Shown here one piece after another: positions 3,599 to 56,811 of a stretch of 64,000 bases of DNA; position 1 is the stretch's first letter, and every line of letters starts with the position of its first letter. The stretch lies in NCBI RefSeq assembly GCF_031851795.1, contig NZ_CP134696.1, positions 4,794,501-4,858,500 on the forward strand. Direction: 5' to 3'. This DNA comes from Pontibacter sp. G13 (lineage in GTDB: Bacteria > Bacteroidota > Bacteroidia > J057). The notes beneath the pieces were generated by a model that was not told the origin of the DNA, made no database searches, and worked only from the letters and a program-made list of their open reading frames with translations. The position numbers were made by a program, and so were the translations under genes.

Positions 3599-3670
3599 GC
3601 TTCTGGGTAGGAGATCTCCCCATTTATCCGCTTCAGTTTATTCAATTGCCAAATCCCGATGTGAAAAGAA

Positions 3671-3706
3671 CAGGGCGTCCATTTCCAGAAGGAGATGGAC
3701 GCCCTG
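3671..3706. terminator. Bidirectional terminator between convergent genes
   Basis: A 16-bp stem (CAGGGCGTCCATTTCC with GGAGATGGACGCCCTG, one wobble) with an AGAA loop lies between the OmpA-like gene and the minus-strand T9SS gene. AATTTTT follows on the plus side, so it can serve both convergent transcripts. Confidence 0.75.
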
Positions 3707-3729
3707 AATTTTTGGGTGGATATGATGTA

Positions 3730-5859: not shown

Positions 5860-6225
5860 GTCTAGAGCAGCAAATGAAAGGTCAGCAGAAAGATTTGGTG
5901 GGTGATTGGGCTAATCACAACGAAACGTTACCGGAATTTCAAGGTGCAGGAGGATTCGGTAGGTCTAGGACATGCTACAATAAGTAAGGTAGCAATAATT
6001 TGGGGTAATCGAAATATTTGCAGTAAAGGTCAATTGAGTGGTCATCGAGCAATCCTATTGCAGAATTGGGTAAAATGGTGATTAGATGTTTAAACATTCA
6101 TTCTGTAACTTGCGTATGGAATCCAAATTTGTCCTGTTATCTTAGGCAAATTCCAAATGAAGCTGTTTGAACGTGTATGTGTTTGGACCAGCTTCTATCA
6201 TTGAAACCAACAAACGAAATAGCAT
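5860..6225. promoter_or_regulatory. Divergent intergenic region before the T9SS and bacilliredoxin genes
   Basis: A 366-base AT-rich gap that must hold both divergent promoters. No clean TTTG/TAnnTTTG pair was found. A 6-bp palindrome (GTGATT at 5902-5907, AATCAC at 5913-5918) lies in the leader of the minus-strand gene, and TATCTTAG near 6138 is one mismatch from a -7 element on the plus side. No further gene was seen. Confidence 0.35.
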
Positions 6226-6642
6226 ATGTATCCTCCTGAGTTGACCGCACCTATGGCGGCTGAATTGAATGATGCCGGACTCGCTTCTCTGTCTACTACC
6301 GAGCAAGTGGATGAAGTGCTGCAAAATCAGCAAGGAACGACTTTGGTCGTCGTGAATTCCGTATGCGGATGTGCTGCTGGTGCTGCCCGTCCTGGTGTAA
6401 TCGATTCTTTGAACGCTAGCGAGCAGAAGCCTGACCATATCTACACCGTATTTGCTGGGGTAGATACCGCTGCTACCAAAAAGGTACGTGAGTACTTGTT
6501 GCCATATCCTCCATCCTCTCCAGCGATTGCGTTGTTCAAGGACGGACAATTGGTGCACATGGTAGAGCGTCATCACATCGAAGGACGTTCCGCTCAGATG
6601 ATTTCTCATCATCTTCAGGCGATGTACCAAGAGTTCTGCTAA
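6226..6642 (+). CDS. Bacilliredoxin (BrxA/BrxB, YphP/YqiW family)
   Basis: A 138-residue protein matching the bacilliredoxin family along its full length. It starts MYPPELTAPM, has the characteristic CGC motif in NSVCGCAAGAARPG, and retains the conserved PPSSPAIALFKDG segment. In Bacillus these thioredoxin-fold proteins remove bacillithiol from oxidised protein cysteines. Whether this organism makes bacillithiol or another thiol cannot be judged from this window. It is a single gene with a strong terminator at 6666-6697. Confidence 0.92.
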   Translation: MYPPELTAPMAAELNDAGLASLSTTEQVDEVLQNQQGTTLVVVNSVCGCAAGAARPGVIDSLNASEQKPDHIYTVFAGVDTAATKKVREYLLPYPPSSPAIALFKDGQLVHMVERHHIEGRSAQMISHHLQAMYQEFC

Positions 6643-6665
6643 TCTGAACTCGATCGACAGAAAAA

Positions 6666-6697
6666 GAAAGGCTGCCCGTTTGTTCAGGCAGCCTTTC
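6666..6697 (+). terminator. Terminator after the bacilliredoxin gene
   Basis: An 11-bp perfect stem (GAAAGGCTGCC / GGCAGCCTTTC) with a 10-base loop, followed by TCGTTT. It starts 24 bases after the stop codon. Confidence 0.75.
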
Positions 6698-6885
6698 TCG
6701 TTTGGGGCAATGGGATCAAGCCTTAGAGCATCTAAGGCAATGTTCTTCCCGCTCTCTGCGCTGCTCTGTATGAGGGACAGAAAGTGTCCTCGGAATGATC
6801 CGCATGATGGCTGAAAACTCCAGAACTTCTTCGATCTATCCCTCATCCGACAGAAGCGTCATCTTTAACGTGAACCGCCCTCAGA

Positions 6886-7464
6886 TCAGGATTCAGATGC
6901 TTCCACCAAATGATAGATGCTTCGAAGCTCTCGCCCATGCTGGGCATAATCCATCCCATATCCGACGACAAAAGCAGGAGGAATTTCAAAACCGATCCAG
7001 TCAGGTGGCTCTTGACCTAAATAGGAATCGGGCTTGAACAGCAGGCTGACGAGCCTAAGAGAAGCGGGGTTTTCCAGACGCAGTTGCTCTCGATACATAT
7101 CCATGGTCTTGCCGGAGTCGACGATGTCTTCCACGAGAATGACATGGCGGTCCTTGACATCCAGATGGTGACCATATTGGATTTTGACCTCGCCACTACT
7201 TTCGAGGAGGTTGCCATAGGATGCGAGCGCGACAAATTGTACTTCGGGATTCATCTCCAAATGGCGGACGAGATCAGCTGCGAATAGGAAGGAGCCATTG
7301 AGCACTACCACGAAAAGAGGTCGCTCGCCCACATAGGCTTCGTTTAGTAATTGGCCCAATTCAGCCACACGCTGATGGATTTCGCGCTCGTGAATCAAGA
7401 GATCGAAGGTCAGATCGTGTACCTGAACCTTTGATGGATGTATGGAGGATTCTGGTTTCTGCAT
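6886..7464 (-). CDS. hpt: Hypoxanthine phosphoribosyltransferase
   Basis: A 192-residue protein that converts hypoxanthine or guanine plus PRPP to IMP or GMP in purine salvage. The PRPP-binding signature ILVEDIVDSGKTM is intact at about residues 112-124. The flexible-loop region (LASYGN) and the C-terminal base-binding segment (PDWIGFEIP) are also present. Length is normal for the family. It is divergent from purF at 7743, so salvage and de novo synthesis genes share the 278-base intergenic region. Confidence in the family is high; substrate preference between hypoxanthine and guanine is not resolved. Confidence 0.93.
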   Translation of the reverse strand: MQKPESSIHPSKVQVHDLTFDLLIHEREIHQRVAELGQLLNEAYVGERPLFVVVLNGSFLFAADLVRHLEMNPEVQFVALASYGNLLESSGEVKIQYGHHLDVKDRHVILVEDIVDSGKTMDMYREQLRLENPASLRLVSLLFKPDSYLGQEPPDWIGFEIPPAFVVGYGMDYAQHGRELRSIYHLVEASES

Positions 7465-7702
7465 GGTGATGGTGACTCAGGAAATGACGGGGAGCGTTGG
7501 TTTGTGACCATTTCGGTGAATACTCGTATAAAGCCCCATCAAATCTATTTGAGGAATAAACCTCATATCGCGGTTTGAGTTATGATTACATGACAATTTA
7601 CCCAATGGGCTGCGCTTTCCTGAGAAATCTAACCTGCATTTTGTTTCAGGATATCCACTGGAGTATTTGCGAACGGTGTTACAATGTTTGAAGGGAAAGG
7701 CG

Positions 7703-7710
7703 TAAATTTG
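7703..7710 (+). promoter_or_regulatory. Possible -7 promoter element of purF
   Basis: TAAATTTG matches the Bacteroidota TAnnTTTG box 33 bases upstream of the purF GTG start. The -33 element is weak (TTA at 7679-7681, 21 bases upstream), so this is only a candidate. Confidence 0.35.
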
Positions 7711-7742
7711 CGTAAGTTGTAGGTTAACTTAATGTTATTCCC

Positions 7743-9656
7743 GTGAGTGAACTCATTAAACATGAATGTGGCATTGGCCTGATTCGCCTGTTGAAACCGC
7801 TGGAATATTACCAGGAGAAATACGGTTCTGCGCTATGGGGCCTCAACAAGATGTACTTGTTGATGGAAAAGCAGCGCAACCGCGGGCAGGACGGAGCTGG
7901 TCTCGCAGTCGTGAAAATGAATACGAAACCCGGTCGTCCCTACATGAATCGTATTCGGGACAACCAAACCAATCCTTGGACCAACATCTTCAAGCAAGTG
8001 GACGGGGAGTTGGAAGCCTTTCAGCAAAACTATCCTGAGACCTTCTCAGAAGCTGAAGAGCTGAAGCTCAACTTTCGCTTTGCGGGAGAGGCAATGTTGG
8101 GACACCTTCGATATGGTACCCATGGTAGCTACGGAATCGAAAACTGCCACCCGGTGGTTCGAAATTCTGAGTACGTGAATCGGAGCCTTGCACTCGCCGG
8201 GAACTTCAACCTTACCAACGTGGGCTACCTCTTCCAGAAATTGGTGGAGCTTGGGCAACATCCCAAATACATGACCGATACAGAAACCGTCTTGGAGCGG
8301 ATCGGACATTTCTTGGATGTGGCCAATGAGCACCTGTACGATAAGTTCAAGAAGAGCGGATATACACGCAACGAAATCACCAAGCTGATCTCCTCCGAGA
8401 TGAATTTGGTGAAAGTGCTGAAAAATGCCGCTAAACCTTGGGATGGTGGTTACGTGATTGGAGGAATTGTGGGGAATGGAGATGCATTCGTAGTACGTGA
8501 TCCTAATGGTATCCGTCCTTGCTATTATTACCACAACGATGAGTTTGTGGTAGCTGCATCGGAGCGATCCACGATCTCTACGGTATTCAATCTGCGTCCA
8601 TTTGATATTCAGGAATTGGCTCCCGGGCACATCATGAGTATCAAGGCACAATCCAACCAGATCAAGATCAAACCATTTACCAAGCCTGACAAGAAATTGT
8701 CCTGCTCCTTTGAGCGGATCTATTTCTCCCGCGGTACAGATGTGAAGATCTACAAGGAACGCAAGCAGCTTGGCCGCGAGGTGGTACCTCAAGTGCTGAA
8801 AAGCATCGATTACGATCTCGACAACACGGTATTTGGATATATTCCCAACACCGCTGAGACTGCGTTCTGGGGAATGGTCAAGGAGGTAGAGCAATATCTC
8901 AATGACCAAAAGGTCGAATGGATCAAGGATCTTGGCAAGAATGCCAATCCTGAGGAGATTTCCAGAATCATCAATATCCGTCCTCGGGTGGAGAAGGTGA
9001 TCATCAAGGATGTGAAGATGCGTACCTTTATCGCCGATGATTCATCGCGCGACGATATGGTGGCACACGTCTACGATGTGACTCGGGGGATCATTCGCAA
9101 TGAGCAGGACAATCTGGTATTGATTGATGACTCCATTGTACGGGGTACGACTTTGAAAAAGTCCATTCTCCAGATCATTGCGAGACTTCGACCCAAAAAG
9201 ATCGTCATCGTTTCTTCTGCCCCTCAGATCCGCTACCCCGATTGCTACGGCATCGACATGTCGCAGATCGAAAAATTGGTGGCTTTTCAAGCGGCTATTG
9301 AATTGCTGAAGGAGCGCGGACAGGAAAAGGTTATCGACAAGGTCTACCGCAAGATCATGGCGATGAAGGCGGAAGATACGCTTCACGAACGCAATGTGGT
9401 GCAAGATATCTATGCTCCTTTCACGGAGGAGGAGATTTCTCAGAAGATCACCGAGATCGTGTGTCCGAAAGATTTCCCAATCGAAACCGAAATCGTGTAC
9501 TTGCCTTTGGAAAAATTGTCCAAGGCAATTCCGGATCATTTGGGGGATTGGTACTTCTCCGGAAACTACCCGACTCCCGGCGGAAATCGCATTGTGAATC
9601 AGGCATATTTGAATTTCTACGAAGGAAAAAGCGAGCGTGCCTACCAAGTAGTCTAA
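7743..9656 (+). CDS. purF: Amidophosphoribosyltransferase, long Bacteroidota-type variant
   Basis: A 637-residue protein starting at GTG. It catalyses the first committed step of purine synthesis, PRPP plus glutamine to phosphoribosylamine. The N-terminal Ntn-hydrolase domain has its nucleophile at Cys9 (IKHECGIGL), so an 8-residue propeptide is probably removed. EKQRNRGQDGAG is the glutamine-site region. The phosphoribosyltransferase domain carries the PRPP signature VLIDDSIVRGTT. The protein is roughly 130-160 residues longer than E. coli or Bacillus PurF, with insertions in both domains and a C-terminal extension. It lies divergent to hpt and is ended by a strong terminator. Confidence 0.9.
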   Translation: MSELIKHECGIGLIRLLKPLEYYQEKYGSALWGLNKMYLLMEKQRNRGQDGAGLAVVKMNTKPGRPYMNRIRDNQTNPWTNIFKQVDGELEAFQQNYPETFSEAEELKLNFRFAGEAMLGHLRYGTHGSYGIENCHPVVRNSEYVNRSLALAGNFNLTNVGYLFQKLVELGQHPKYMTDTETVLERIGHFLDVANEHLYDKFKKSGYTRNEITKLISSEMNLVKVLKNAAKPWDGGYVIGGIVGNGDAFVVRDPNGIRPCYYYHNDEFVVAASERSTISTVFNLRPFDIQELAPGHIMSIKAQSNQIKIKPFTKPDKKLSCSFERIYFSRGTDVKIYKERKQLGREVVPQVLKSIDYDLDNTVFGYIPNTAETAFWGMVKEVEQYLNDQKVEWIKDLGKNANPEEISRIINIRPRVEKVIIKDVKMRTFIADDSSRDDMVAHVYDVTRGIIRNEQDNLVLIDDSIVRGTTLKKSILQIIARLRPKKIVIVSSAPQIRYPDCYGIDMSQIEKLVAFQAAIELLKERGQEKVIDKVYRKIMAMKAEDTLHERNVVQDIYAPFTEEEISQKITEIVCPKDFPIETEIVYLPLEKLSKAIPDHLGDWYFSGNYPTPGGNRIVNQAYLNFYEGKSERAYQVV

Positions 9657-9682: not shown

Positions 9683-9711
9683 GAGCGCCATTTCCTGCGG
9701 GAATGGCGCTC
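9683..9711 (+). terminator. Terminator after purF
   Basis: A 13-bp stem with one wobble (GAGCGCCATTTCC / GGGAATGGCGCTC), a very short loop and a TTTTTGT tail, 26 bases after the stop codon. Confidence 0.8.
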
Positions 9712-9989
9712 TTTTTGTATAGGTAATGACATCTCTTTCGTCGTCATGAATGATCCCGTTCGGGGAAGTAGGCGGACGGAGGAAGGATCTTCCACAGTCT
9801 GATGGGCGATCCAAAGACCTGGAAAGCCTTCTATCTCAGGAGAAACCTATAGAAGGCGAGTTAGAACCGAGATTATTTCTTCCAGCCTGTTGTACCAGGG
9901 CTGAGCTGTTCGGACTACTTCCGATTCGCCAGATAGTATTGTGTCGAGTCATCTTGGCCTCTAGGGCAAGATTCAATCCGGAATCTATC

Positions 9990-10994
9990 ATGTCTTCTAC
10001 TTCAACCTCCCGCAACTCCACTACCTTATGGGTTCCTCGTCTAACCAATGTCCATCCCAAGGATCGCTGGTTGGCCCTGGGATTCCTCCTGACCGCTCTG
10101 TTCCTATGGGCATTCAACCAATTTGCTGTTCCGCTTATTCAGCAAGCCGCCCAATCTCCAGCACCCTCCATCATCACCGTATACACCATTGATATTGGGC
10201 CTACACCAGAAGCATCTGGGGCGACTGAATCCGCTGCCATTCCGGTGGCATCTGAACCGGATATTCATCAGTCTCATTCCATTCCTCCTTTTTTGCATCC
10301 AACTTATCTGGATGTAGAAGGCAAGCGCATGTCCAATGCCGAATTGGTCTTTACAATTGAGCAGCATGTTCCTGATGTGAAATATGAATTGGATTTTGGA
10401 GATGGAAGCCGTACCTCACTTCGGAAGCGTACCGTACATGCCTACCAATTTCCGGGTGAATTTATCGTGACGCTGCTCATGACCTATGAAGGCAAGACCT
10501 ATGAATTCACCAAAGACCTGTACATTCACCCAAAAATTGATCGCGCCAGACCGATTGCTGTACGGAATGAGGAAATCCTTTCAAGCCCTACCCCAAATCA
10601 AGAATTGGCACATGTGGCAATGGCTCCTATGAGCCAACCTGTAGATCACACGCACTCTGAATTGATTTTGGAGCCTTGGATGATTCCTCAGAACTATCCC
10701 CAGTTTCCCGGAGGGGAAAAAAAGCTCATCCAATACATCCGGAGAAATGCCAAATATCCTCGTATCGCTCGAAATCACGAGGTGGAAGGAACGGTATTGG
10801 TGAAATTTGACGTGTCGGATGAGGGGATTTTGTCGAATATCAAAGTGGTCAAGAGCCTTGGATTTGGATTAGATGAAGAAGCTATTCGACTGGTGAAGGC
10901 CATGCCTAAGTGGCGACCTGCCATGATTGATGGAAATGCTGTGAATTTTCATGAGATCCTCCCATTTACCTTCAAGCTCCTGAGTACGGATTAG
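9990..10994 (+). CDS. TonB-family energy transducer with periplasmic PKD-like domain
   Basis: A 334-residue protein. I start it at ATG 9990 (MSSTSTSRNST), because the frame upstream lacks protein-like composition. One membrane segment lies at about residues 28-50 (LALGFLLTALFLWAFNQF). A short linker is followed by a PKD-like domain with the signature YELDFGDGS, then a TonB C-terminal domain (YPQFPGGEKKLIQYIRRNAKYP to the end). TonB proteins pass energy from ExbB/ExbD to outer-membrane transporters. The PKD insert between membrane anchor and TonB domain is unusual and may contact a surface glycan or protein. There is no adjacent exbB or exbD; those lie 10 kb away. Confidence 0.85.
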   Translation: MSSTSTSRNSTTLWVPRLTNVHPKDRWLALGFLLTALFLWAFNQFAVPLIQQAAQSPAPSIITVYTIDIGPTPEASGATESAAIPVASEPDIHQSHSIPPFLHPTYLDVEGKRMSNAELVFTIEQHVPDVKYELDFGDGSRTSLRKRTVHAYQFPGEFIVTLLMTYEGKTYEFTKDLYIHPKIDRARPIAVRNEEILSSPTPNQELAHVAMAPMSQPVDHTHSELILEPWMIPQNYPQFPGGEKKLIQYIRRNAKYPRIARNHEVEGTVLVKFDVSDEGILSNIKVVKSLGFGLDEEAIRLVKAMPKWRPAMIDGNAVNFHEILPFTFKLLSTD

Positions 10995-11031
10995 GCAATT
11001 CCATGCAAATCCTTCAAAGCGAAACACTCAA

Positions 11032-11069
11032 AAAAACGCCCGCATCCAGAAGAAGATGCGGGCGTTTTT
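11032..11069. terminator. Bidirectional terminator
   Basis: A 15-bp perfect stem (AAAAACGCCCGCATC / GATGCGGGCGTTTTT) with an 8-base loop. A-runs on one side and T-runs on the other serve both the tonB-like gene and the minus-strand cytochrome gene. Confidence 0.85.
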
Positions 11070-11108
11070 CATACCAAAGCTGTGTTTTCCACCAGATCAT
11101 CCTTGGTA

Positions 11109-12203
11109 CTAGGGACGTGGATAGTCCTTCGGGTCCATTTGCTGAATCCAGTCGTTGATCAGCTCGGCACTTTCTTTATGCACTACTTTTCGACCAACTT
11201 CGGGCATCATGACGCCTGGATCTTCGGATTCGATCCGGAGCATAAGGATAGAGGAATTAGGGTCTCCAGGAATGATATCGTAGAGCAGTCCACCAGAACC
11301 GCGACCAGCGGCCACAGGCGATTTGTGGATTCCCCAGATGTAGGGATCATCCTGATGGATGTCAAGGAAGAGTCCAGAAGTACTTGCTGGTCCGTGTTCA
11401 TTGTGACAGTGGGCACAGTTGATGTCCAGCCAGATTCTTGCACGCTCGTCGATGGAGCCTGTCGAAGGATCATCCCAAACGGGTGCTTTGGGGACTTTGG
11501 ACCAATCTTCAGGAAGATTGGTCATCATATTTTGAGCTTTCCAGTGTTCAAGTTGATTTTGGGTTCCGTGGGCAAAGGCATATTCCCCGTTGAGCTGTCT
11601 TGCGGAAGGACCAATCGGACGCATGGCGCCTTTGAAGGAGTGGCAACCTTTGCATTGGTTCTGATTGGGCATGACGTACTCTAACTTCTGCTTTTTACCC
11701 TTGCTGTCTTTCCAGGAGATCTGCTTTCTGCCGCCAGCTACTTCCAGATAGGCTTCTGTTTGGTCGTCATTCCAGTGATAGGGAACGGCTCTCCAGCCTG
11801 CTTCTTGGTGGATAAGCAGACGGGTTTCCAGCAATTGACGTCCTTTTTCTGGATTGCGCTCATCATGGGGATAGTAGAAAGTTTTGATCAAAACTGTACC
11901 GACTGGGAAATCCAAAACTTCATGGTCGTTAAAGTCCACAGATGCGCCTTCCGGTAGCTTTACAAACCGCTGTTTCCAGGCATAATCTGAAAAAAGCGGT
12001 GTGTTCAAGTCATAGGGAACCACGCCATTCACGGGGTCGAGCTGGGCCATTTCTCCCTGAAAAAATCCATAGTCGGATAGTTTCATGTGCACGCCCTCAG
12101 GGAGATCCTGTGGCTTTTCGGCAAATCCAACAATCAGGATCAGGACGGCACTCAGCGCCATCATTCTCAAAAGTGCCTTGGGTAACTTCATAGAACCGAT
12201 CAT
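11109..12203 (-). CDS. SO2930-family diheme c-type cytochrome
   Basis: A 364-residue exported protein with an N-terminal hydrophobic signal (residues 5-27). Two heme-attachment motifs, CKGCH (184-188) and CAHCH (263-267), and methionines near the C-terminus (ILMLRI, GVMMPEVG) are consistent with two c-type hemes. The family (TIGR03806 type) is known to occur beside a parallel beta-helix protein, exactly as here with the gene at 12272. It is probably periplasmic or surface redox. A second in-frame ATG at 12191 (MKLPKAL) is an equally good start. Substrate and electron partner are unknown. Confidence 0.88.
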   Translation of the reverse strand: MIGSMKLPKALLRMMALSAVLILIVGFAEKPQDLPEGVHMKLSDYGFFQGEMAQLDPVNGVVPYDLNTPLFSDYAWKQRFVKLPEGASVDFNDHEVLDFPVGTVLIKTFYYPHDERNPEKGRQLLETRLLIHQEAGWRAVPYHWNDDQTEAYLEVAGGRKQISWKDSKGKKQKLEYVMPNQNQCKGCHSFKGAMRPIGPSARQLNGEYAFAHGTQNQLEHWKAQNMMTNLPEDWSKVPKAPVWDDPSTGSIDERARIWLDINCAHCHNEHGPASTSGLFLDIHQDDPYIWGIHKSPVAAGRGSGGLLYDIIPGDPNSSILMLRIESEDPGVMMPEVGRKVVHKESAELINDWIQQMDPKDYPRP

Positions 12204-44805: not shown

Positions 44806-47800
44806 TCAATGTACAATCTGTATGCTCTGCTGGTGAGTCTGGTGATCGCTCTCAATCAGGAGGAGATAGATGCCTGATGCGAGTTGATCCACGGGTAGAC
44901 TGACCGATTGGCGGGGAGTCCCAGCCAAATGTTGATGCAAGACTGTCTGCCCTTGGCTATTGAGCAATCGAATGCGCTCGATACCTGTCGGGTGGATCGT
45001 TTCCTGCATAGAAATGTGTAAGGTGTTTGTCGCGGGGTTTGGACCGATAGAAAATAGGGCTTGTGGTGCCGCGCGGGTGATTTCCACCATCGGCGAATAG
45101 CTAAATGCACCGTCTATGTCGATTTGCTTAATTCGGTAGTACTGGGTGCCAAAATCGAGTGCCGGATCTGTGACTTCGTAGTGGTGGTATGTTCCGGGAT
45201 TCCGGTCTGCCTCCATCGTGGAGATGATCTGGAAGTCTACGGCATCGAAGGATTTTTCCACTTCGAATCGCTCATTGTGGACTTCAGAGGCAGTTGTCCA
45301 TCGAATCTGACCTTGTTGGCCTACTTGCTCTGCGGTAACGGAAATCCATTCTACCGGGAGTGTCGCGACAGTTCCCAAGGTGTAGAAGGTCTCCGGCGAA
45401 GCTTGGTTTCGATATTCAGTCAAGATCCAGTCAGCATCATGTGGCGAGCTGCACACCGATACTTCATCGATACCGCCTTGGAAATAGTTGTCAACGCGTC
45501 CGATATACCGGAAGTTGGTGGCTGTTGGGATATATCCAGCCTGACCTGTGGAGTTGTAGACTTGGAGCCCATCGATGTACAGGGTGTAGTTGGTGCCATC
45601 GAACGTACTCACGACATAGTGCCAGATCCCTTCGCCGTCTGTCATGACAGAATCGGGCGTAATCCAAGAACGCCATCCGGAGCCATCCCCAAATCCTCCG
45701 TGAATTCGGTTGTACTGGCGCATCCATAGAGAAGGCGCACGTTGGTTGGTTCCGCCAGAGCTATTGCCCATGAACCCATGCCAGCTGTCGTCGGCTTGTT
45801 CTGATCTGATCCATGCCGATAGGGTGAATACGCCGCCGGGGATGAGATTGCCGCTGATTTCGTAGTAATCATCTGAGCCGTCGAAATAGCTTGCATAACC
45901 AATGGGCCCTTCGATTCGATCGGCGTTGGTCATGCCTCCATTGGCGGTACCATCAAATCCATTCGCAGTGCCATCTCCCAACTGGGGACCTGCGAGCCCT
46001 GCGTCGCCGTCCATGTGCCAGCGACCCTGATAGCAGCTGTTCCAAGTAGTGGCGCTGGCGAGACTACCGGTGGCGGAGGCATTGCCGAATAGAATCCGAA
46101 TCTCCGTGTCTTGGATATATGATAAAACGGGGATACGTACCCAGCCGATCCATTCTCCAATCGTGGGATCGTACCTTTCTGTCTGGAAACTGAGGCTTCC
46201 CCCAACTGAATCGACAAAGGCAATATCAAACCCTGCCATGCTGGAGACATTACCTCCGTAGCTGGTGTGTCGCAGTTCCGGAATGGTATCCTTGATCAGG
46301 ACCGGGAAATCCATGAGGTCTGCACTACCACTCACTTCAGATGCATGAATGGTGATGGTGCGTGCAAAGGTGAATGAACCCAAGATCGATTCCGTATCAA
46401 ACTCCATGGTATCAGTGAAGGCATCCACCGAAAGCGGCTGACCATCGTCCCCAAAAAGCGTGGCAATCAATACATGTGAGCCTACTGGAACCGTCAAGAA
46501 TTGAGCACTGCCATCAAAGATGAATTCAGAAATAGAATCGCCATCCAGCTCGATCAGTACATGGTGCACGGAATCGGTGTTGCCGGTAAGGGAGTAACTC
46601 ACCGAAATATCCGTCAAGGTCAAAACCGCTCCTTCCACTGGATCTGTAATGCTCAATGCAGGTGCGGGAAGCTCAGACAAGTACACAAAGGTCTCTTGAG
46701 AAACGTCCCCACCTGTGGAATCTGCAATGGTGTAGGATAGGGTATCGCCATTGGAGGCAATGCCATTGTGTTGGTAGTGAATCGTTCCATCCGTGAGATT
46801 GGGAGTGGCTATGCCCGCATTTGGACTCTGGATAATGGTCAATGTCGCTGGATCGTAACCATCCAAGATGATGTCATTGGACAGTACATCCAAGGTCCGG
46901 GACATGCCCACGATATATTCGCCATGATCTTCCTCGCCGTACGGAATGTCGCACCTTGGGTACAAATCCTTGTACGTGGAGCTGGAAAGTCCTTCTGGAT
47001 CGGTGATGGTGAAATTGACTCGCCACCAGTAGGTGTCCGACTCGCAGCCAATGGGGTCCAGGCTCACGGTGGAGGACGAATCGTAAATGACTGGGTCTGG
47101 GTGATTGTGGTCGTTGTGGTAGAGGACTGATTGCCATTCCCAAGTGAGATTGGCGTTGAGGTGTTCCAGATCGATGATGGTGGCCTCCAACGGAACCAGC
47201 TTTGGGGCCAACAGGGTGTAATCCGTGGCAGTATCCAAAGAGGTCCACACAATCGAAGGAGGGGTGTTATTCAGGTAAATGTCCAGTGTGGTAATCGCCG
47301 CGAGACCGCCGGTATCGGTGACTGTCAAGGTCACCGTGAAGGTCTCGGGGATAGCTCCAGCGGCATTGAATGTGTGGCTAGGCGTTGGGCCTGTATCGCT
47401 ATTCCCATCCCCAAAATTCCAGCTGTAGGTCAAGGCAGCTCCTTCTGGGTCGCTGGAACTTGTTCCGTCAAAATTCACTGTCAAAGAGGCGGATGGCGCA
47501 TAGATCGTATCGGCAGCAGCCACGGCCACGGGTTTCTGATTGCCGGTAGGGCTGTAGGTGAATCTTCGGACTTTGGTGGAATAGGCGATGTAGTAGATGT
47601 CGCCAGAGATAGGATGCGATTCCAGATAGACGATCGGATCGAGATTCGCTGCGAAATCCATGATGCTGTCCGGCTGGTTGTCCGAGTTGAAATCGAATCC
47701 TCTGATCCATTTCTTCCCGTAATCTGCATGGAAATACCGCCCTTGATATTGAGATGGATAGCTCGTGCCTGTGTAGAATGCACCGCCGATGGAGCAGTTT

Positions 47801-49107
47801 CCATTGAAGGAAGGCCCCGGAACAGGACCAGCACCGACGGTAGAGGTGACTCCGTCAATGGATGCGTATACTGTCCCATTTCTCCAATCTACCGCAGGTT
47901 TACGATGAGCAAATAGATCGTAGACCGTACTGTCAATCTCATTGCCGGGAGAACAGGGGTCTGAAAAAATCGGTTGAGCGCCTCCTGAATATTGCTTGAT
48001 CAGGTCGGTGAATTTGTAGTAAGGCTGGGTGCAGCCTCCAGAAGTCGGCGCATATTGATGGTAGGGGCTTGCATTGAAGTAGTCGTTTCGCTGGTCCATA
48101 CCTTCGTAGGCAGGCCACCCAAAATTCTGGGCAGGACCATCACATACATCCAGTTCCTCTTTTCCGTTCCAACCTACATCGCCAATGTAGATGACGCCGG
48201 GATCTCCATCGGATTCGTAGTGGCTTCCGGTATTGGGCTTGAGCGTCATTCGGCTGGGATTTCGTAGTCCCAACGCCCACACCCGAGAGGGATTGCTCCG
48301 GGGATTGGCTGGTTCGTAGAAGGGATTCGAAGCGATTCCATCTCCTGTGGCTGGATCGATCCGGATGATCTTTCCATTGAGGCTTTCCAGCATTTGGGAT
48401 CGATAGGCCCCCACATCCATTTGCGTATTGATGATGCCATCTGCCAATGCCTGCACGGCGTAGCTATTCCCGACAGAACCTCCAGCATCCACGGCCTGAT
48501 AACTCGCACCATCACCACAGGCAGCCAGCAAGGTGCCATCCGTTCCAAAAACCAAGGTCCCGATTCCATGTGATGAATGGACGATGGGAAAACCCGTGCT
48601 GGCGGTTTCGCCCACGAGGACTACCCGGCTGTTGTAATCCACCGTGGCGATGGCCGGATCTTGAGGATCAGTGACGGTGTATCGGACAATTCTGCCGATC
48701 GTGGCACTACCGTTTTCCGTAGCGTTGGGGTTGTAGGAAGGCGTACCGTAGTAGAGAAGATGGTGGCGGTCCACCACATACATGCAGTAAATATATCCTG
48801 TGGAGTAGTAGTTGGGATCTAGTGCAAACCCCAAGAAACCATGATCGCCGAAGTTGCCTACTTCTTCCTGAATGTTGAGGAGGGGAGCAGCGCGTCTGAC
48901 GCTATCCTGAACGATGTGAACTTGACCTCGTTTTTCCCAGACGTACAGGACACCATCTTGGTCGAATGTGATCCCCACTGCCTGATTCCATCCGTCGAAG
49001 TATAGTTCATCCGTAAAGCCCGTCGGCTGGGCCATGATGCCCCCTGAAAACCATAGACATAGCATGAGACTAGCCCATCGCAATGTCTCGCGAATCGTGT
49101 AAGTCAT
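44806..49107 (-). CDS. Large secreted PQQ-type sugar dehydrogenase / PKD / LamG protein with T9SS sorting domain
   Basis: A 1433-residue protein with a signal peptide (ending GGIMAQ). Residues about 30-490 form a glucose/sorbosone dehydrogenase-like six-bladed propeller (NFGDHGFLGFALDPNYYSTG, VWALGLRNPSRMTL, IGDVGWNGKEELDVC). A PKD domain follows at about 520-605 (SSDPEGAALTYSWNFGDG), then Ig/cadherin-like modules at about 605-860. A DUF2341-like region (about 895-1010), a LamG-like domain (about 1030-1220) and a T9SS sorting domain (SIGPNPATNTLHISM to end) complete it. It may oxidise sugars at the cell surface. The C-terminal 540 residues are paralogous to the neighbour at 42860. Confidence 0.88.
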   Translation of the reverse strand: MTYTIRETLRWASLMLCLWFSGGIMAQPTGFTDELYFDGWNQAVGITFDQDGVLYVWEKRGQVHIVQDSVRRAAPLLNIQEEVGNFGDHGFLGFALDPNYYSTGYIYCMYVVDRHHLLYYGTPSYNPNATENGSATIGRIVRYTVTDPQDPAIATVDYNSRVVLVGETASTGFPIVHSSHGIGTLVFGTDGTLLAACGDGASYQAVDAGGSVGNSYAVQALADGIINTQMDVGAYRSQMLESLNGKIIRIDPATGDGIASNPFYEPANPRSNPSRVWALGLRNPSRMTLKPNTGSHYESDGDPGVIYIGDVGWNGKEELDVCDGPAQNFGWPAYEGMDQRNDYFNASPYHQYAPTSGGCTQPYYKFTDLIKQYSGGAQPIFSDPCSPGNEIDSTVYDLFAHRKPAVDWRNGTVYASIDGVTSTVGAGPVPGPSFNGNCSIGGAFYTGTSYPSQYQGRYFHADYGKKWIRGFDFNSDNQPDSIMDFAANLDPIVYLESHPISGDIYYIAYSTKVRRFTYSPTGNQKPVAVAAADTIYAPSASLTVNFDGTSSSDPEGAALTYSWNFGDGNSDTGPTPSHTFNAAGAIPETFTVTLTVTDTGGLAAITTLDIYLNNTPPSIVWTSLDTATDYTLLAPKLVPLEATIIDLEHLNANLTWEWQSVLYHNDHNHPDPVIYDSSSTVSLDPIGCESDTYWWRVNFTITDPEGLSSSTYKDLYPRCDIPYGEEDHGEYIVGMSRTLDVLSNDIILDGYDPATLTIIQSPNAGIATPNLTDGTIHYQHNGIASNGDTLSYTIADSTGGDVSQETFVYLSELPAPALSITDPVEGAVLTLTDISVSYSLTGNTDSVHHVLIELDGDSISEFIFDGSAQFLTVPVGSHVLIATLFGDDGQPLSVDAFTDTMEFDTESILGSFTFARTITIHASEVSGSADLMDFPVLIKDTIPELRHTSYGGNVSSMAGFDIAFVDSVGGSLSFQTERYDPTIGEWIGWVRIPVLSYIQDTEIRILFGNASATGSLASATTWNSCYQGRWHMDGDAGLAGPQLGDGTANGFDGTANGGMTNADRIEGPIGYASYFDGSDDYYEISGNLIPGGVFTLSAWIRSEQADDSWHGFMGNSSGGTNQRAPSLWMRQYNRIHGGFGDGSGWRSWITPDSVMTDGEGIWHYVVSTFDGTNYTLYIDGLQVYNSTGQAGYIPTATNFRYIGRVDNYFQGGIDEVSVCSSPHDADWILTEYRNQASPETFYTLGTVATLPVEWISVTAEQVGQQGQIRWTTASEVHNERFEVEKSFDAVDFQIISTMEADRNPGTYHHYEVTDPALDFGTQYYRIKQIDIDGAFSYSPMVEITRAAPQALFSIGPNPATNTLHISMQETIHPTGIERIRLLNSQGQTVLHQHLAGTPRQSVSLPVDQLASGIYLLLIESDHQTHQQSIQIVH

Positions 49108-50617: not shown

Positions 50618-50660
50618 GGTAGGAGTAATGTTCTACCAATTACTTTGTATTGCAAAGTAA
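50618..50660 (+). promoter_or_regulatory. Palindromic leader of the XrtN-system operon
   Basis: A 5-bp hairpin (GGTAG/CTACC, 50618-50637) is followed by a perfect 8-bp one (TTACTTTG, TATTG loop, CAAAGTAA, 50640-50660). Both lie 130-175 bases before the VIT gene start. They may be operator sites or part of a structured leader. The rest of the gap to 50792 shows no gene. Confidence 0.4.
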
Positions 50661-50792: not shown

Positions 50793-53699
50793 ATGAAATC
50801 ATCATCACAAGATCCAGACCTAGCACGACGCAAGCGAAATCGGAATGTCGTCATCGGAGGGATCATCTTCCTGATTCCGCTCGTGTCCTCTGTCTTTTTC
50901 ACATTTGGCTTCAGTTCAGGATTGTTCCAAGCGACAGGTATCATTCTGTTGATCTGTTGTTTTCTGGTGGGCTCGTATCTGCTCCCTGAGCATCGCTTCA
51001 TTCGGTCCCAGATGAAAATGGCGGAAGACTCCAACCAAGAAGACGGTTCTCAGGGGGCTGTCTCTGGCGATCATTCAAAATCTGACGCATTGCCTGCCAA
51101 GGTCCGGAAACCCATTTCCAGGGCTCGGCTCAAGTCGCTCCATCAGTTGCTTTTTGTACTCATGGGCTTGGCGTTGTCAGGATACACACTGTTTATTTTC
51201 TCAGGTTCTATTACCTCTTCCAATGAAAACGCCATGATGCTTTTTCTGGGAACCTACATCTTGGCAGTACTGGGGCTCAGTTTCACATTGGGCAATCGTG
51301 TATACCAAAAGGACTGGTGGCACTTGCCTATTCAGGCTCGACTTCCACATTCCATTCTCTTGATCATATTCTCCGTGGCAGCTCATGCCTTGAATCATAC
51401 AGAGATCCAGGTATTTGTGCCGTACGCCGGATGGATGTGGGCCTATTTGGGGGCATTTCATATCAGCTGGTTGTTTTTTCCTTTCTATGAAAAGCTACCT
51501 GAGTTTGGCCGGGTAGTACTGGCATTTGTATATGGAGCCGGCGTGCTGATGAGTCTCTATATGACGATTTTTCTGCTGCCACTGATGGCTATCAGTATTC
51601 CCTTGATGCTCGGGTTGGGGCTCTCTGCATTGTCATTCACACCGCTATTTTGGCTATTGCACATGGCAGCGGGATACCACCGCATCCAAGGTGAGCGCGA
51701 TCCCAAGCGGGCTTATTGGCTCGGTCTCACCATCCCAGCAGTCGTGATCTCCATCTTCTTGTGGAAGTGGGGTGGCATTCAGCAAGATCTGGAACAAGGC
51801 AAGGATCGATATGCTGCACTTGCGCAACCTGCTTATCCAGAGTGGGTGTATCTCTCCCAAGCATATCCCAAAACCGATCTGGCCGAAGCTGTGATGATGT
51901 CGGAAGCCACTCGCCAGCGCTCCTTCTATGAAGAGGGATTCGACGGCATGACCCGGCAATACGAGGAGTTTGTCCGGCACAACCCACTCCCGATCATCGG
52001 ACGATTGCTCAATGGCCCATTTGCCGTCGACCGGGAAACCCGAGTCAAGGTGCTTGAGTCCAAATTCGATGCCCGTCACATGACCCACCGCCGACTTTGG
52101 ACGGGCAGAGATTTGGAGACGACGCATGTGGATAGCGAGATTGAGCTATTTCCGGACTATCGGTTGGCCTATGTCCAGCAAACCATCCAAGTCGCCAATC
52201 AACCCCTAATCGGTCAGGAACACCACTGGTCAGGGCGTACACAGGAGGCGGTTTACACGTTTTACCTGCCGGACGGAGCCGTGGCGACTTCCTTGTCTCT
52301 ATGGGTGGAAGGGGTAGAACGCAAGTCTCGATTGACCACCCGGGGCAAGGCCGATTCTGCCTACACAGAAATTGTCGGGGTAGAAAGACGAGATCCAGCG
52401 TTGATGCATTGGCAGGAAGGCAATCGAGTGACCGTCACCATTTTTCCTGTCGAGCGAAACGATAGCCGCCAATTCAAGGTGGGGTTCACCATGCCGTTTC
52501 ATGTGCATGGGGATCGCATGACGCTCCATTCGCTGGCATTTGATGGACCGGATTTCAGCGATACTGAGGCGACTATTTCTGTCCGGTTAGGGGAAGGCCA
52601 GCAGGTCCAAGACTTTGATTTGCCCGCGGGATTTAAGGAACAGGCCGGTCGATGGACCTATGAGGGACCTTGGCAGCCCAACTTGACTGTCGAGATGGAC
52701 AAGACGCCTTTGGGAACCGGGACCTTTTCTTTCCTCGATGAGACCTATTCCCTACAAGAAATCGAGTACCAACCACGCACGGCAGAGATCGAAGAAGTCT
52801 GGCTAGATATTCACGCGGGCTGGACCTACGAGGAAATGCGCAAAATCATGGAGCAAATCCCTTGGGAAGCGATTTGGGTCTACACCGATTCCGCTGTGAA
52901 AGTGACCGAGGAAAATCATGATGCACTATTTGCTCAATTGCACAAGCAGGCATTTTCATTGCTTCCCTTCGACCAAATTCACGATCCCGCACATGCACTT
53001 GTCATCTCCAAATCTCAACCCGGAACGCCGCTCTTGATGGATTTGGATGGGTCCCAATTTGCCCATCGAAGTATCCAGACATTCACCAGCGATTCATTCG
53101 TACCGATCATGTGGTGGGATTTGTCCGATACCCCCTCCGACTATGTGAAATCCCTCCGAGAATTGAGACTCATTGATTGGTACGGAGGAGCACCCGAAGC
53201 ACTGAGCGCACAATTGTCCAGCAACACCTTCCCTACAGCGCCCGAATCCACAACAACCATGAATCTTCCATTCGCTCAGCTTCAACTCGTACGCACACCC
53301 GGAACCCAGCCGAATACCGCTCCTGATCACCTTGCCAGATTGTTTGTTTATCAAGATCTCATGCGCGAAATCGGTCGTCAATACTTTGACCGCGCAGCCT
53401 TGGAGGAGAATTGGGTGCGCAAGGCCGAACTAGGCTTTGTCCTCAGTCCGATTTCCAGCTTGATCGTCTTGGAGACTGACCAGGATTATGATCGATTCGG
53501 AATTGAAGAAAACGAAGAGACGCTTGGCAATGCGCAAGTGAATCCCCCCACCAGTCTCGGAGGAGGTTCGGTCCTGAGTAGCCATAACGAAGATGGAGCA
53601 GTGCCTGAACCACATGAGTGGGCATTGATCCTGTTGGTATTGATGGCTGGAGGATATTTCTGGCGAATGAAAGCTCGGAACCCGCAGCAGATTGCCTAA
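50793..53699 (+). CDS. XrtN-system VIT-domain membrane protein
   Basis: A 968-residue protein of the type named as the partner of exosortase N (TIGR04477-like). About ten membrane segments lie in residues 20-335. A VIT domain lies at about 450-590 (AVYTFYLPDGAVATSLSLWV, SAYTEIVGVERRDP). The C-terminus is a tripartite sorting signal: the acidic/Pro motif PEPHEW, a hydrophobic span (ALILLVLMAGGYFW) and basic RMKAR. The gene for the exosortase begins at its stop codon (TAATG overlap). It is probably cleaved or anchored by that enzyme. The biological role of the system is not established. Confidence 0.88.
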   Translation: MKSSSQDPDLARRKRNRNVVIGGIIFLIPLVSSVFFTFGFSSGLFQATGIILLICCFLVGSYLLPEHRFIRSQMKMAEDSNQEDGSQGAVSGDHSKSDALPAKVRKPISRARLKSLHQLLFVLMGLALSGYTLFIFSGSITSSNENAMMLFLGTYILAVLGLSFTLGNRVYQKDWWHLPIQARLPHSILLIIFSVAAHALNHTEIQVFVPYAGWMWAYLGAFHISWLFFPFYEKLPEFGRVVLAFVYGAGVLMSLYMTIFLLPLMAISIPLMLGLGLSALSFTPLFWLLHMAAGYHRIQGERDPKRAYWLGLTIPAVVISIFLWKWGGIQQDLEQGKDRYAALAQPAYPEWVYLSQAYPKTDLAEAVMMSEATRQRSFYEEGFDGMTRQYEEFVRHNPLPIIGRLLNGPFAVDRETRVKVLESKFDARHMTHRRLWTGRDLETTHVDSEIELFPDYRLAYVQQTIQVANQPLIGQEHHWSGRTQEAVYTFYLPDGAVATSLSLWVEGVERKSRLTTRGKADSAYTEIVGVERRDPALMHWQEGNRVTVTIFPVERNDSRQFKVGFTMPFHVHGDRMTLHSLAFDGPDFSDTEATISVRLGEGQQVQDFDLPAGFKEQAGRWTYEGPWQPNLTVEMDKTPLGTGTFSFLDETYSLQEIEYQPRTAEIEEVWLDIHAGWTYEEMRKIMEQIPWEAIWVYTDSAVKVTEENHDALFAQLHKQAFSLLPFDQIHDPAHALVISKSQPGTPLLMDLDGSQFAHRSIQTFTSDSFVPIMWWDLSDTPSDYVKSLRELRLIDWYGGAPEALSAQLSSNTFPTAPESTTTMNLPFAQLQLVRTPGTQPNTAPDHLARLFVYQDLMREIGRQYFDRAALEENWVRKAELGFVLSPISSLIVLETDQDYDRFGIEENEETLGNAQVNPPTSLGGGSVLSSHNEDGAVPEPHEWALILLVLMAGGYFWRMKARNPQQIA

Positions 53700-55075
53700 T
53701 GAAGATTTCCCTTATTCGTAATTCCCATCGCGCTCAGCTATCTCCGGCCATTGTTACCGGGGTATGGCTGGGCGTTTGGTTTCTGCTGACTTGGTCTGGA
53801 TGGCAAGCATACATCCGGCCGGGCTTCAACTTGTGGCTCGGACTCGCGATGGTGCCATTCGTATGGAGCATCCGCCAACCGGGCATTCGTACACATCGGG
53901 CGCTCATCTGGATGGGCCTTCTGATCGCGCTGCATATCCGATTCCACATGATGATCTGGTTTTGGTTGGCTACAGGTGCCGGTGTGGTCTGGATCTTGGA
54001 GGCAAGACATGGCAAGCTCGGTTGGCTGCCTTGGATTTGGCTGGGCCTGACTTCTCCGGTTCCGGGATTCGTGACGGAAATTGTCACCTTTCCGGTGCGG
54101 CTGCACATCTCCCAAACTGTTGGAAAGGTCCTGGCGCAGATTGGATTTCCCATCGAAGTCTCCGGCAATGTATTCCTCACGGCAGGCAAGCGATTTGTTG
54201 TGGCTCCTGAATGCCTCGGGATGAATACCTTGGTCACAGGATGGGTCCTCCTCACGATGATGCTCGGAGTCCTGAGTGTGCGCAGCAGGCGGTCGTTTAA
54301 GCTATGGGAATTGTTGGGGCTTTACGGTGTCACTACCTGTCTGTTGATCGTCGGCAATTATTTCCGGACCGGAGTTTTGGTCCTTTTTCAAGCGATGCCG
54401 GGTACAGTGGGACATGAGGTCATCGGGCTGATGTGCCTGTTGGCGTATGGGGTTTTGCCGATGTTTCTTTGGCTGCACCTGCGCATGAGAAATTTGCCTC
54501 CCAAATCCTCACATGACCCAAAAACGCCTCCTGCCCAAGCCACGATCTGGGTGGGACTCGGATTGCTTGCAGGGATGGTGGTCGTTCAGCAAGCCGCTTG
54601 GGGGGAACATGGATATGCAATTCCGAAGCCTGCCAAGGCCCACTTCGAATGGGTGGAAAGTGCTTGGGCAGATTGGGACCATTGTCAGACTGAATTTGGA
54701 ATCGATCGATACTATCAGGATTCCGTGTTGGTGTATGTCAAACCTCCTGTGCGTTTTTGGGGTGGAAATCATGGCCCAGAGCTTTGCTGGCGAGGTTCGG
54801 GGTATGAATTTGGGCAATTGGAGATTCAGGTGATTGCGGGGTACCAAGTCTATTGGGCAGAGTTGAACAAACCCGGGCAGCAACCCATGCAAACCGCTTG
54901 GTGGTACGAAAACGGGGAGTTTCATGCCCATGATCAGTGGCAGTGGAGGAGTCTCACCATCCAAGGCGCATCCGGATTTCAGCTGGTCAATCTCACTGCA
55001 TCTTCCGCATCTGTACTACTTTCGGAGGTGGAGGATTATCTGGTGAATCACAGACCCGTACACCGAACACTGTAA
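53699..55075 (+). CDS. xrtN: Exosortase N
   Basis: A 458-residue polytopic transpeptidase-like protein, started at the ATG that overlaps the preceding stop codon by one base. The exosortase catalytic triad is visible in order: Cys172 in VAPECLGMNTL, Arg223 in GNYFRTGVLVLF and His239 in GTVGHEVIGL. About eight membrane segments surround these residues, and a C-terminal soluble domain of roughly 170 residues follows. It is predicted to process the PEP-type signal of the VIT protein just upstream. A terminator with a long loop follows at 55269. Confidence 0.88.
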   Translation: MKISLIRNSHRAQLSPAIVTGVWLGVWFLLTWSGWQAYIRPGFNLWLGLAMVPFVWSIRQPGIRTHRALIWMGLLIALHIRFHMMIWFWLATGAGVVWILEARHGKLGWLPWIWLGLTSPVPGFVTEIVTFPVRLHISQTVGKVLAQIGFPIEVSGNVFLTAGKRFVVAPECLGMNTLVTGWVLLTMMLGVLSVRSRRSFKLWELLGLYGVTTCLLIVGNYFRTGVLVLFQAMPGTVGHEVIGLMCLLAYGVLPMFLWLHLRMRNLPPKSSHDPKTPPAQATIWVGLGLLAGMVVVQQAAWGEHGYAIPKPAKAHFEWVESAWADWDHCQTEFGIDRYYQDSVLVYVKPPVRFWGGNHGPELCWRGSGYEFGQLEIQVIAGYQVYWAELNKPGQQPMQTAWWYENGEFHAHDQWQWRSLTIQGASGFQLVNLTASSASVLLSEVEDYLVNHRPVHRTL

Positions 55076-55324: not shown

Positions 55325-55395
55325 CAAGACGATGTAAATTCCAGTGCTAATCTTGATTGGTTTGTCCCAATCACCCTATTAACATCAGGAAACGC

Positions 55396-56811
55396 ATGAT
55401 TCAGTTTGGGGACCTTTCCTTTTGGGAATTCATGAAATCTAACCATATCGCACAAGGCTTCCTGATATTGGCAGTCTCGGTCGGCATGCTGGTTTCTGTT
55501 CACCAGACTGAGCGGGGCATTATCGCCCTGCTCGGAGATGACACCGACTCGGAGACCCAATACGCGGCAAACCCAGCGGATACCCTGTCTGAACCAGCCA
55601 TGCTGGAAGTGGATATCCTCGCCGAAACGCCATCCGATGAGCCCATCGCGATGCCGGACGAGCCTCCTTTGTCCCGATTCTTCGAGGAGTGGGAGCGAGT
55701 GCGCACTGGAAAGGGCAAGCTGCGTGTAGCCTACTTTGGCGATTCCATGATCGAGGGAGATCTCGTCACCCAATCGCTTCGGGACCGCTTGCAGCAGCAA
55801 TATGGCGGTACAGGAGTTGGCTTTGTGCCCATCACTTCGCAGACCTACGGATTTCGCAAATCCATCAAGCATAGATTCTCTTCAGACTGGAAGGATTTCA
55901 GTTTCCTCAAATCCAACCCCACCAAGCATGATTTCGGGATTTCGGGGGAATTTTTCCTGACCCGTAAACCCGGTGCCAAAGGAACTACCTGGGTCAAATA
56001 CGAGGCTACCGACCTCTACCCGGGCACACAAGTCTTCGAGCAATGCAAGCTCTACTTTGGAAGACCGCTTGGCTCAGAAGGCAAATTGGAAGTAGGACAA
56101 GTGCTCGTACAATCCGAAACTGGAACTGACACCATCCAATTGGTGGCAGAGGGCGAAGTCAACCAAGTCCTCCTGACTACAGATTCGACCACATTCATCC
56201 AACTGGATTTCCAGATACCCACCAACCTTCCCGTCTATGGCCTGAGCTTCGAAAGCGAAGAAGGAATTTTGGTGGACAACTTTGCCTCTCGGGGCAATAG
56301 CGGGCTCAATCTTCGGACTTTGCCGGGCGAAACCCTTGGGGAGTTCCATGCCCACATGGATTACGATCTGATAGTCCTGCAATTTGGGTTGAATGTCATC
56401 CGGACCGACAGAAAAAACTACGACTTCTACAAACGGGGCATGCGCAAAGTGATCGCGCATTTTCAGCAGCACATGCCCGAAACCGACATCCTCCTCGTCA
56501 GCGTATCGGACAAAAGCACGCGTATCAATGGAAGAATGCAAACCGATCCGAGCATTCCTCACTTGATCAATGCGCAATGCTCGCTCGCGGAGGAAATGAA
56601 TGTCGGATTCCTCAATCTTTTTGAAGAAATGGGCGGCGAAAACTCCATGGTCGAATGGGTTCGCTCCAATCCCTCCCTCGCTCGCAAAGATTACACCCAT
56701 CCAAACCTGCTGGGGGCCGATAAGCTCGGTTCCATCGTGTCCAACTATTTTATGGAAGAGTATTACCATTTCCATGAAAGACAGGGCACCCGACAACTGG
56801 CAGGATTATAA
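55396..56811 (+). CDS. Membrane-anchored SGNH/GDSL-type hydrolase
   Basis: A protein of about 471 residues, started at ATG 55396 (MIQFGDLSFWEFMKSN); a later ATG at 55432 is possible. One membrane segment near residues 18-35 anchors it. The SGNH blocks are block I YFGDSMIEGD (nucleophile Ser), a GTGVGF turn for block II, block III DLIVLQFGLNV, where the usual Asn is retained, and the terminal His in DYTHPNLLGADK. Such enzymes de-acylate or acylate cell-wall or exported polysaccharides. It follows the XrtN pair on the same strand, but a terminator lies between, and it lacks a sorting signal. Confidence 0.83.
   Translation: MIQFGDLSFWEFMKSNHIAQGFLILAVSVGMLVSVHQTERGIIALLGDDTDSETQYAANPADTLSEPAMLEVDILAETPSDEPIAMPDEPPLSRFFEEWERVRTGKGKLRVAYFGDSMIEGDLVTQSLRDRLQQQYGGTGVGFVPITSQTYGFRKSIKHRFSSDWKDFSFLKSNPTKHDFGISGEFFLTRKPGAKGTTWVKYEATDLYPGTQVFEQCKLYFGRPLGSEGKLEVGQVLVQSETGTDTIQLVAEGEVNQVLLTTDSTTFIQLDFQIPTNLPVYGLSFESEEGILVDNFASRGNSGLNLRTLPGETLGEFHAHMDYDLIVLQFGLNVIRTDRKNYDFYKRGMRKVIAHFQQHMPETDILLVSVSDKSTRINGRMQTDPSIPHLINAQCSLAEEMNVGFLNLFEEMGGENSMVEWVRSNPSLARKDYTHPNLLGADKLGSIVSNYFMEEYYHFHERQGTRQLAGL

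Follow-up and report, generated by a model that had tools for sequence, protein, structure and literature searches.

A complete exosortase N/VIT pair in Pontibacter sp. G13 preceded by a conserved palindrome, a putative HTH_34 operator

We analyzed a stretch of 64,000 nucleotides of the genome of Pontibacter sp. G13 (Bacteroidota; contig NZ_CP134696.1, positions 4,794,501 to 4,858,500 of the forward strand; the window) and found adjoining genes for exosortase N (XrtN) and its predicted sole substrate, a polytopic protein with a VIT domain (Table 1). The two genes probably make up an operon devoted to one exosortase and its substrate and governed by a conserved operator, in which the winged-helix regulator HTH_34 would control expression and XrtN would process its neighbor. 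The TAA of the VIT gene and the ATG of the exosortase gene share one base (TAATG), which agrees with the overlap of the original prediction, and both proteins score above the curated NCBIfam cut-offs (250 bits for TIGR04477 and 200 bits for TIGR04476), so the pair is not due to chance and the reading of the locus as a complete XrtN/VIT pair is supported. The TIGR04476/TIGR04477 pair is, as had been stated in that prediction, an already known NCBIfam family to which the window adds a further member: adjacent overlapping genes and the same sorting motif are common to both, whereas the VIT protein of the window differs by two extra N-terminal segments, and the operator and regulon described here are absent from the NCBIfam names of the family.

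A survey of 296 genomes of the phylum with the family profiles and with VPEPxxEW coding DNA found TIGR04476 and TIGR04477 above cut-off in the identical four genomes and in no others, and the source genome (G000; 7.67 Mb in 3 contigs) gave a single exosortase match with the PF09721 profile. One genome per species was scanned with two seeds, GAVPEPHE being one of them, which yielded 232 relatives. Among the 80 loci kept, which include the pairs of Chitinophaga pinensis (L104) and Niastella (L066), XrtN was found beside the VIT gene in 74; at the XrtN-less loci L035, L040, L057, L060 and L108 the contig ends within 1 kb. Start codons were chosen by script, with the XrtN start taken as the one nearest to the VIT stop, which favors short overlaps; with these starts the gap exceeds 100 bases in 5 of the 74 loci, including L058, where XrtN lies in two frames (5165-6495; a frameshift or an assembly error), and L042, where a DUF4153 gene sits between VIT and XrtN (2564-7959). 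Two alignments were built, from which near duplicates and truncated copies were excluded by hand: A3 with 58 VIT proteins (54 of the 80 loci, the window and 3 genome loci) and A4 with 52 XrtN proteins (48 of the 80 loci, the window and 3 genome loci). VIT and XrtN distances were correlated in a mirror tree (r 0.86, n 50, 0 of 2000 permutations), which, being uncorrected for species kinship, shows only shared inheritance. No conserved immediate partner gene was present besides VIT and XrtN, the commonest neighbor families reaching at most 21 of 81 loci (window included).

The PEP-type tripartite signal claimed for the extreme C-terminus of the VIT protein is present as GAVPEPHEW, followed by a hydrophobic helix and then RMKAR. 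Mean column identity among the 58 VIT proteins was 0.98 in the motif, 0.69 in the VIT domain, 0.44 in the helix after the motif and 0.38 in the membrane bundle. GxxPEPxEW fits the motif in all 80 loci; GAVPEPHE is exact in 71 of the 80, a count biased by its use as a search seed, while the 22 loci carrying the other seed have GAVPEPHE in 13 and variants in 9, and 4 loci found by profile alone carry GAVPEPHEW in every case. A genome search for further PEP-type C-termini, which had been proposed as a check of whether the system is one-to-one, gave one exosortase, one VPEPxxEW coding motif and no PEP-CTERM (PF07589) match above cut-off in the source genome; the six sub-threshold PF07589 matches there (best E 0.15) have their like in 13 of 14 control genomes, again none above cut-off. 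Further targets in the phylum were also sought with degenerate VPEPxxEW DNA in the 296 genomes and rejected: the 6 matches were 4 VIT-protein ends and 2 chance matches internal to other frames, with 151 and 175 residues following. The PEP-CTERM/EpsH exopolysaccharide system has the PF09721 exosortase family and a tripartite signal in common with XrtN, but it has many targets per genome, whereas XrtN here has one.

The Cys172, Arg223 and His239 of the exosortase, stated earlier to be intact, are all there and do not vary in alignment A4. XrtN also has an extra C-terminal domain, where all 52 aligned proteins share K348, H358, P360, C363, W364, G368, W401 and W402 without exception; its second invariant Cys and His may, as a conjecture, have a role in acceptor choice. 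EpsI/DUF3485 matched this domain weakly (8 of 52 at E <=0.1, best 0.0013; with the domain cut out, 1 of 10 at E 0.21), PsbP/Mog1-like and other folds were rejected (VIA Z <=7.4, within noise), and Foldseek with the XrtN model gave no match at E <0.001 and no solved exosortase. Separate frames with weak matches to the C-terminal domain also occur in genomes of a single family, G083 and G090 among them; two of these genomes have an exosortase-like frame about 1 kb away. The domain may accordingly be a unit of its own. In the XrtF system of Flavobacterium johnsoniae a Bacteroidota exosortase likewise has a partner gene of its own, although XrtF belongs to a different family and has no named target there; deletions of the system impair colonisation and biofilm (PMC10936215).

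The VIT protein had been said to start with about ten membrane segments, which is nearly right: by hydropathy nine precede the VIT domain and ten are counted with the C-terminal one. Family-averaged hydropathy resolves these into 7 conserved N-terminal segments (121-324), 2 extra ones (19-65) that are missing in nearly all relatives, and one C-terminal segment. The odd number of segments, together with positive loops at 67-112 and 298-305, suggests that the VIT domain is periplasmic and the basic tail inside, as the exosortase requires. The AlphaFold2 model of the protein has a predicted local distance difference test score (pLDDT) of 84.8, and a strand-borne DxSxS (the MIDAS metal site) is absent in 58 of 58 aligned VIT proteins. 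A second VIT-vWA protein of the source genome (L126, 5449-8742; contig C1, about 4.677 Mb; 1098 aa) has intact DxSxS and TDG and is without a sorting tail.

Taken as a mechanism, XrtN would be a polytopic protease of the cysteine type, using its Cys-Arg-His triad; it would recognize G-[A/S]-V-P-E-P-x-E-W, borne only by its neighbor, cut near PEP on the periplasmic side so that the C-terminal helix is removed, and probably hand the C-terminus thus created to an acceptor. Its substrate would combine an inner-membrane bundle of seven to nine helices with a periplasmic ectodomain that has no metal site but is otherwise similar to the heavy chains of inter-alpha-inhibitor. Since the bundle would still anchor the substrate after the cut, we infer that processing cannot serve release and should instead modify the distal end of the ectodomain or attach it to something else. 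The same anchoring fits a plain protease, for which an anchor exchange is unneeded: removal of the helix would mature or switch a membrane protein, and the acyl-enzyme would be resolved by water rather than by an acceptor. We regard this as possible though rather unlikely, because a transpeptidase activity has been suggested for exosortases, archaeosortases and rhombosortases (PMC11980579).

Upstream of the pair lies a 17-bp palindrome of consensus ACTTTG-N5-CAAAGT, first noticed upstream of the gene for the membrane protein c3 in related loci as TTTACTTTG-N5-CAAAGTACTTT. Between -700 and +60 of the VIT start it is exact in 47 of the 80 loci (shuffle mean 0.01 loci) and present with at most one mismatch in 56 (shuffles 0.28), and among the 58 loci without adjacent c3 or HTH_34 it is exact in 37. 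The loci hold 82 exact sites in 1,515,329 bases, of which 58 lie before VIT, 16 before c3 and 5 just after HTH_34; of the remaining 3, 2 are upstream of an HTH_34 gene at a distance of 0.7 kb and 1 is at the start of a DUF1361 gene in a cluster of the c3/HTH_34 type. A sample of 400 kb from the source genome had no site with at most one mismatch. A chance motif is excluded by the shuffles, by the near-confinement of sites to these operons and by this empty sample. The window has 5 matches at up to two mismatches, which is not unusual (shuffle mean 2.37; at least 5 in 10 of 100 shuffles), and only its exact match counts. In L051, L061 and L069 the palindrome stands at VIT start +4, slightly within the gene as delimited by the script; translation of these three therefore probably begins at a later codon.

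The HTH_34 gene (PF13601) occurs in 21 of the 80 loci, c3 in 20 and both in 19, always on the same strand and upstream of the pair where present; DUF1361 occurs in 11 and DUF4153 in 6. In the source genome c3 and HTH_34 form a separate overlapping pair at 3.32 Mb, with a one-mismatch palindrome just before c3, and the palindrome likewise precedes c3 in the separate c3-HTH_34 units of G245, G174, G326 and G163 (one mismatch in G163). Moreover, of 10 genomes in which HTH_34 is full-length (>90 bits), 9 have the exact site at the exosortase-target operon, against 0 of the 4 genomes that lack a full-length HTH_34 (10/2002, or about 0.005, for 14 genomes and with kinship ignored). Two loci of G166 were examined, one with sites and the other without. 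We infer from these sites an HTH_34 regulon that would cover its own c3 operon and whichever exosortase pair a genome has: HTH_34, co-encoded with c3 elsewhere in the source genome, would recognize ACTTTG-N5-CAAAGT upstream of both its own operon and the pair and so set the expression of the pair. The sites before c3 suggest autoregulation of the c3-HTH_34 operon, and the overlap of the palindrome with a -7-like promoter box suggests repression.

Several observations weigh against such an operon and regulon. Neither c3 nor HTH_34 adjoins the pair in 58 of the 80 loci or in the source genome; the table of 14 genomes is small and uncorrected for kinship; G163 has HTH_34 and is without a palindrome at its MSEP locus; and L096, with a VIT gene at 9688-12192 and an intact GAVPEPHEW, is without XrtN in the 3.7 kb after it. 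In addition, 16 of the 80 loci lack the palindrome at up to one mismatch, and its left arm resembles the Bacteroidota -7 promoter box, so that part of it may be promoter. The last two points favor the view that the pair is real and processed while the palindrome serves a different regulator or acts as an extended promoter, HTH_34 being merely a frequent neighbor. This view appears unlikely to us, as 79 of 82 sites in 1.515 Mb fall at these operons and none in the 400 kb of the source genome, sites precede the c3-HTH_34 operon itself, and the exosortase operon has no site in 4 of 4 genomes without a full-length HTH_34.

The proposed dedicated operon under HTH_34 has a close parallel in XrtK/MSEP-CTERM (TIGR04287/TIGR04286), whose substrate is likewise a polytopic VIT protein. 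MSEP-CTERM and XrtN targets are homologous over residues 143-563 of the window protein (hhalign 99.3%, E 9.8e-21), that is over bundle and VIT domain; thus the original prediction was right that the sorting target is polytopic, but this is not unique to XrtN. The window protein scores 41.5 bits with TIGR04286, in the VIT region only and below the cut-off of 150 bits, and TIGR04287 has no match in the source genome; neither family exceeds its cut-off there, unlike TIGR04476 and TIGR04477. XrtK, of about 170 aa, lacks the C-terminal domain of XrtN and is encoded upstream of its target, which carries the motif MSEP. MSEP-CTERM was above cut-off in ten genomes (4 of the 296 and 7 of a second set of 249, with G289 in both), the four of the 296 including no XrtN genome, and XrtK was above cut-off in 9 of the ten, adjoining its target. 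XrtK/MSEP loci share with XrtN loci the neighbors c3, HTH_34, DUF1361 and DUF4153 (4 of the 10 MSEP loci are flanked by the first three, and 3 of these 4 also by DUF4153) and an identical operator. With the same operator and neighbors and a homologous polytopic substrate, the two pairs look interchangeable. G166, which has no TIGR04287 match in its genome, encodes an MSEP-like polytopic VIT protein (L148, 6118-9036, minus strand) that has lost the MSEP motif and kept the helix, with the operator still upstream. That the VIT tail is a plain membrane anchor or an XrtN assembly contact and is never cut agrees with the finding of no XrtN cleavage data in the literature searched, but is highly improbable given the identity of the motif against that of the following helix (0.98 vs 0.44), the intact triad in every aligned XrtN, and the joint absence in G166 of a TIGR04287 match and of the MSEP motif.

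The model of the VIT ectodomain resembled heavy chain 1 of inter-alpha-inhibitor (6fpy; Foldseek E 4e-13; Z 15.0 over 397 residues, root-mean-square deviation 7.6), the next entry from another family having Z 9.3. The VIT profile against sequences of solved structures gave ITIH4 as best match at only E 0.036, so the link to inter-alpha-inhibitor rests on the fold. By the Pfam match and the model, VIT and vWA folds are common to the two; heavy chains, however, are secreted and retain Asp298/Ser300/Ser302/Asp403, whereas the window protein is polytopic and without DxSxS. Heavy chains are described as made with C-terminal pro-domains that are removed in maturation, and their C-termini as ester-linked to the N-acetylgalactosamine of chondroitin sulfate (PMC7170535). 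We take the modeled likeness as a lead and not as evidence of the same chemistry. It is a quite doubtful, speculative extension that XrtN/VIT and XrtK/MSEP can replace each other in driving a single envelope program under HTH_34 control, in which the enzyme joins the cut heavy-chain-like C-terminus to an envelope glycan. If true, bacteria would have their own equivalent of the bond between heavy chain and glycosaminoglycan in inter-alpha-inhibitor, and cutting and joining would fasten an envelope polymer to the inner membrane, in place of the surface release assumed for exosortases.

The features of the pair are collected in Table 1. Elsewhere in the window, a GDSL-like hydrolase (55357-56811, plus strand; PF13472, 34.4 bits) lies downstream of the pair and is not a conserved neighbor, and a 1433-aa protein (44806-49107, minus strand) has a GSDH domain, PKD, a LamG-like domain and a type IX secretion tail.

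Table 1. Positions in the window of the XrtN/VIT genes, their parts and the upstream palindrome.
Feature	Position	Strand	Basis or remark
17-bp palindrome ACTTTGTATTGCAAAGT, putative HTH_34 operator	50642..50658	.	only exact match in window; upstream of pair
XrtN-system VIT protein gene (TIGR04477), predicted sole substrate	50793..53699	+	968 aa; 707.3 bits; PF08487 VIT 36.7 bits, cut-off 26.5
Two extra N-terminal membrane segments, residues ~12-66	50826..50990	+	hydropathy; A3 occupancy 0.02-0.05; low pLDDT
Conserved seven-segment membrane bundle, residues 121-324	51153..51764	+	hydropathy; common to MSEP-CTERM proteins
VIT domain, residues 481-563	52233..52481	+	Pfam PF08487
vWA-like alpha/beta domain without DxSxS metal site, residues 660-815	52770..53237	+	model secondary structure
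Sorting motif GAVPEPHEW, residues 935-943	53595..53621	+	mean column identity 0.98
C-terminal membrane helix and basic tail (RMKAR), residues 944-968	53622..53696	+	sequence, model, hydropathy
Exosortase N gene (TIGR04476)	53699..55075	+	458 aa; 245.8 bits; model pLDDT 89
Codon of predicted catalytic Cys172	54212..54214	+	invariant in 52/52 aligned XrtN
Codon of Arg223	54365..54367	+	invariant in 52/52 aligned XrtN
Codon of His239	54413..54415	+	invariant in 52/52 aligned XrtN
Extra C-terminal domain of XrtN, residues 310-458	54626..55072	+	conservation; alpha/beta fold in model

In the literature searched, outside which most subscription papers lie, we found no paper on exosortase N and no prior account of the operator, the HTH_34 link, the setting common with XrtK/MSEP or the heavy-chain-like fold. 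With a single enzyme, a single target and a nine-residue motif that hardly varies, the pair is a clean system for finding an exosortase acceptor, and the putatively co-regulated genes c3, DUF4153, DUF1361 and XrtK/MSEP point to the process in which the pair takes part. The putative operator shared with a one-domain regulator offers a handle, as deletion of the regulator could switch the pair on or off, and a recurring DNA site before such pairs makes an orphan enzyme family testable.

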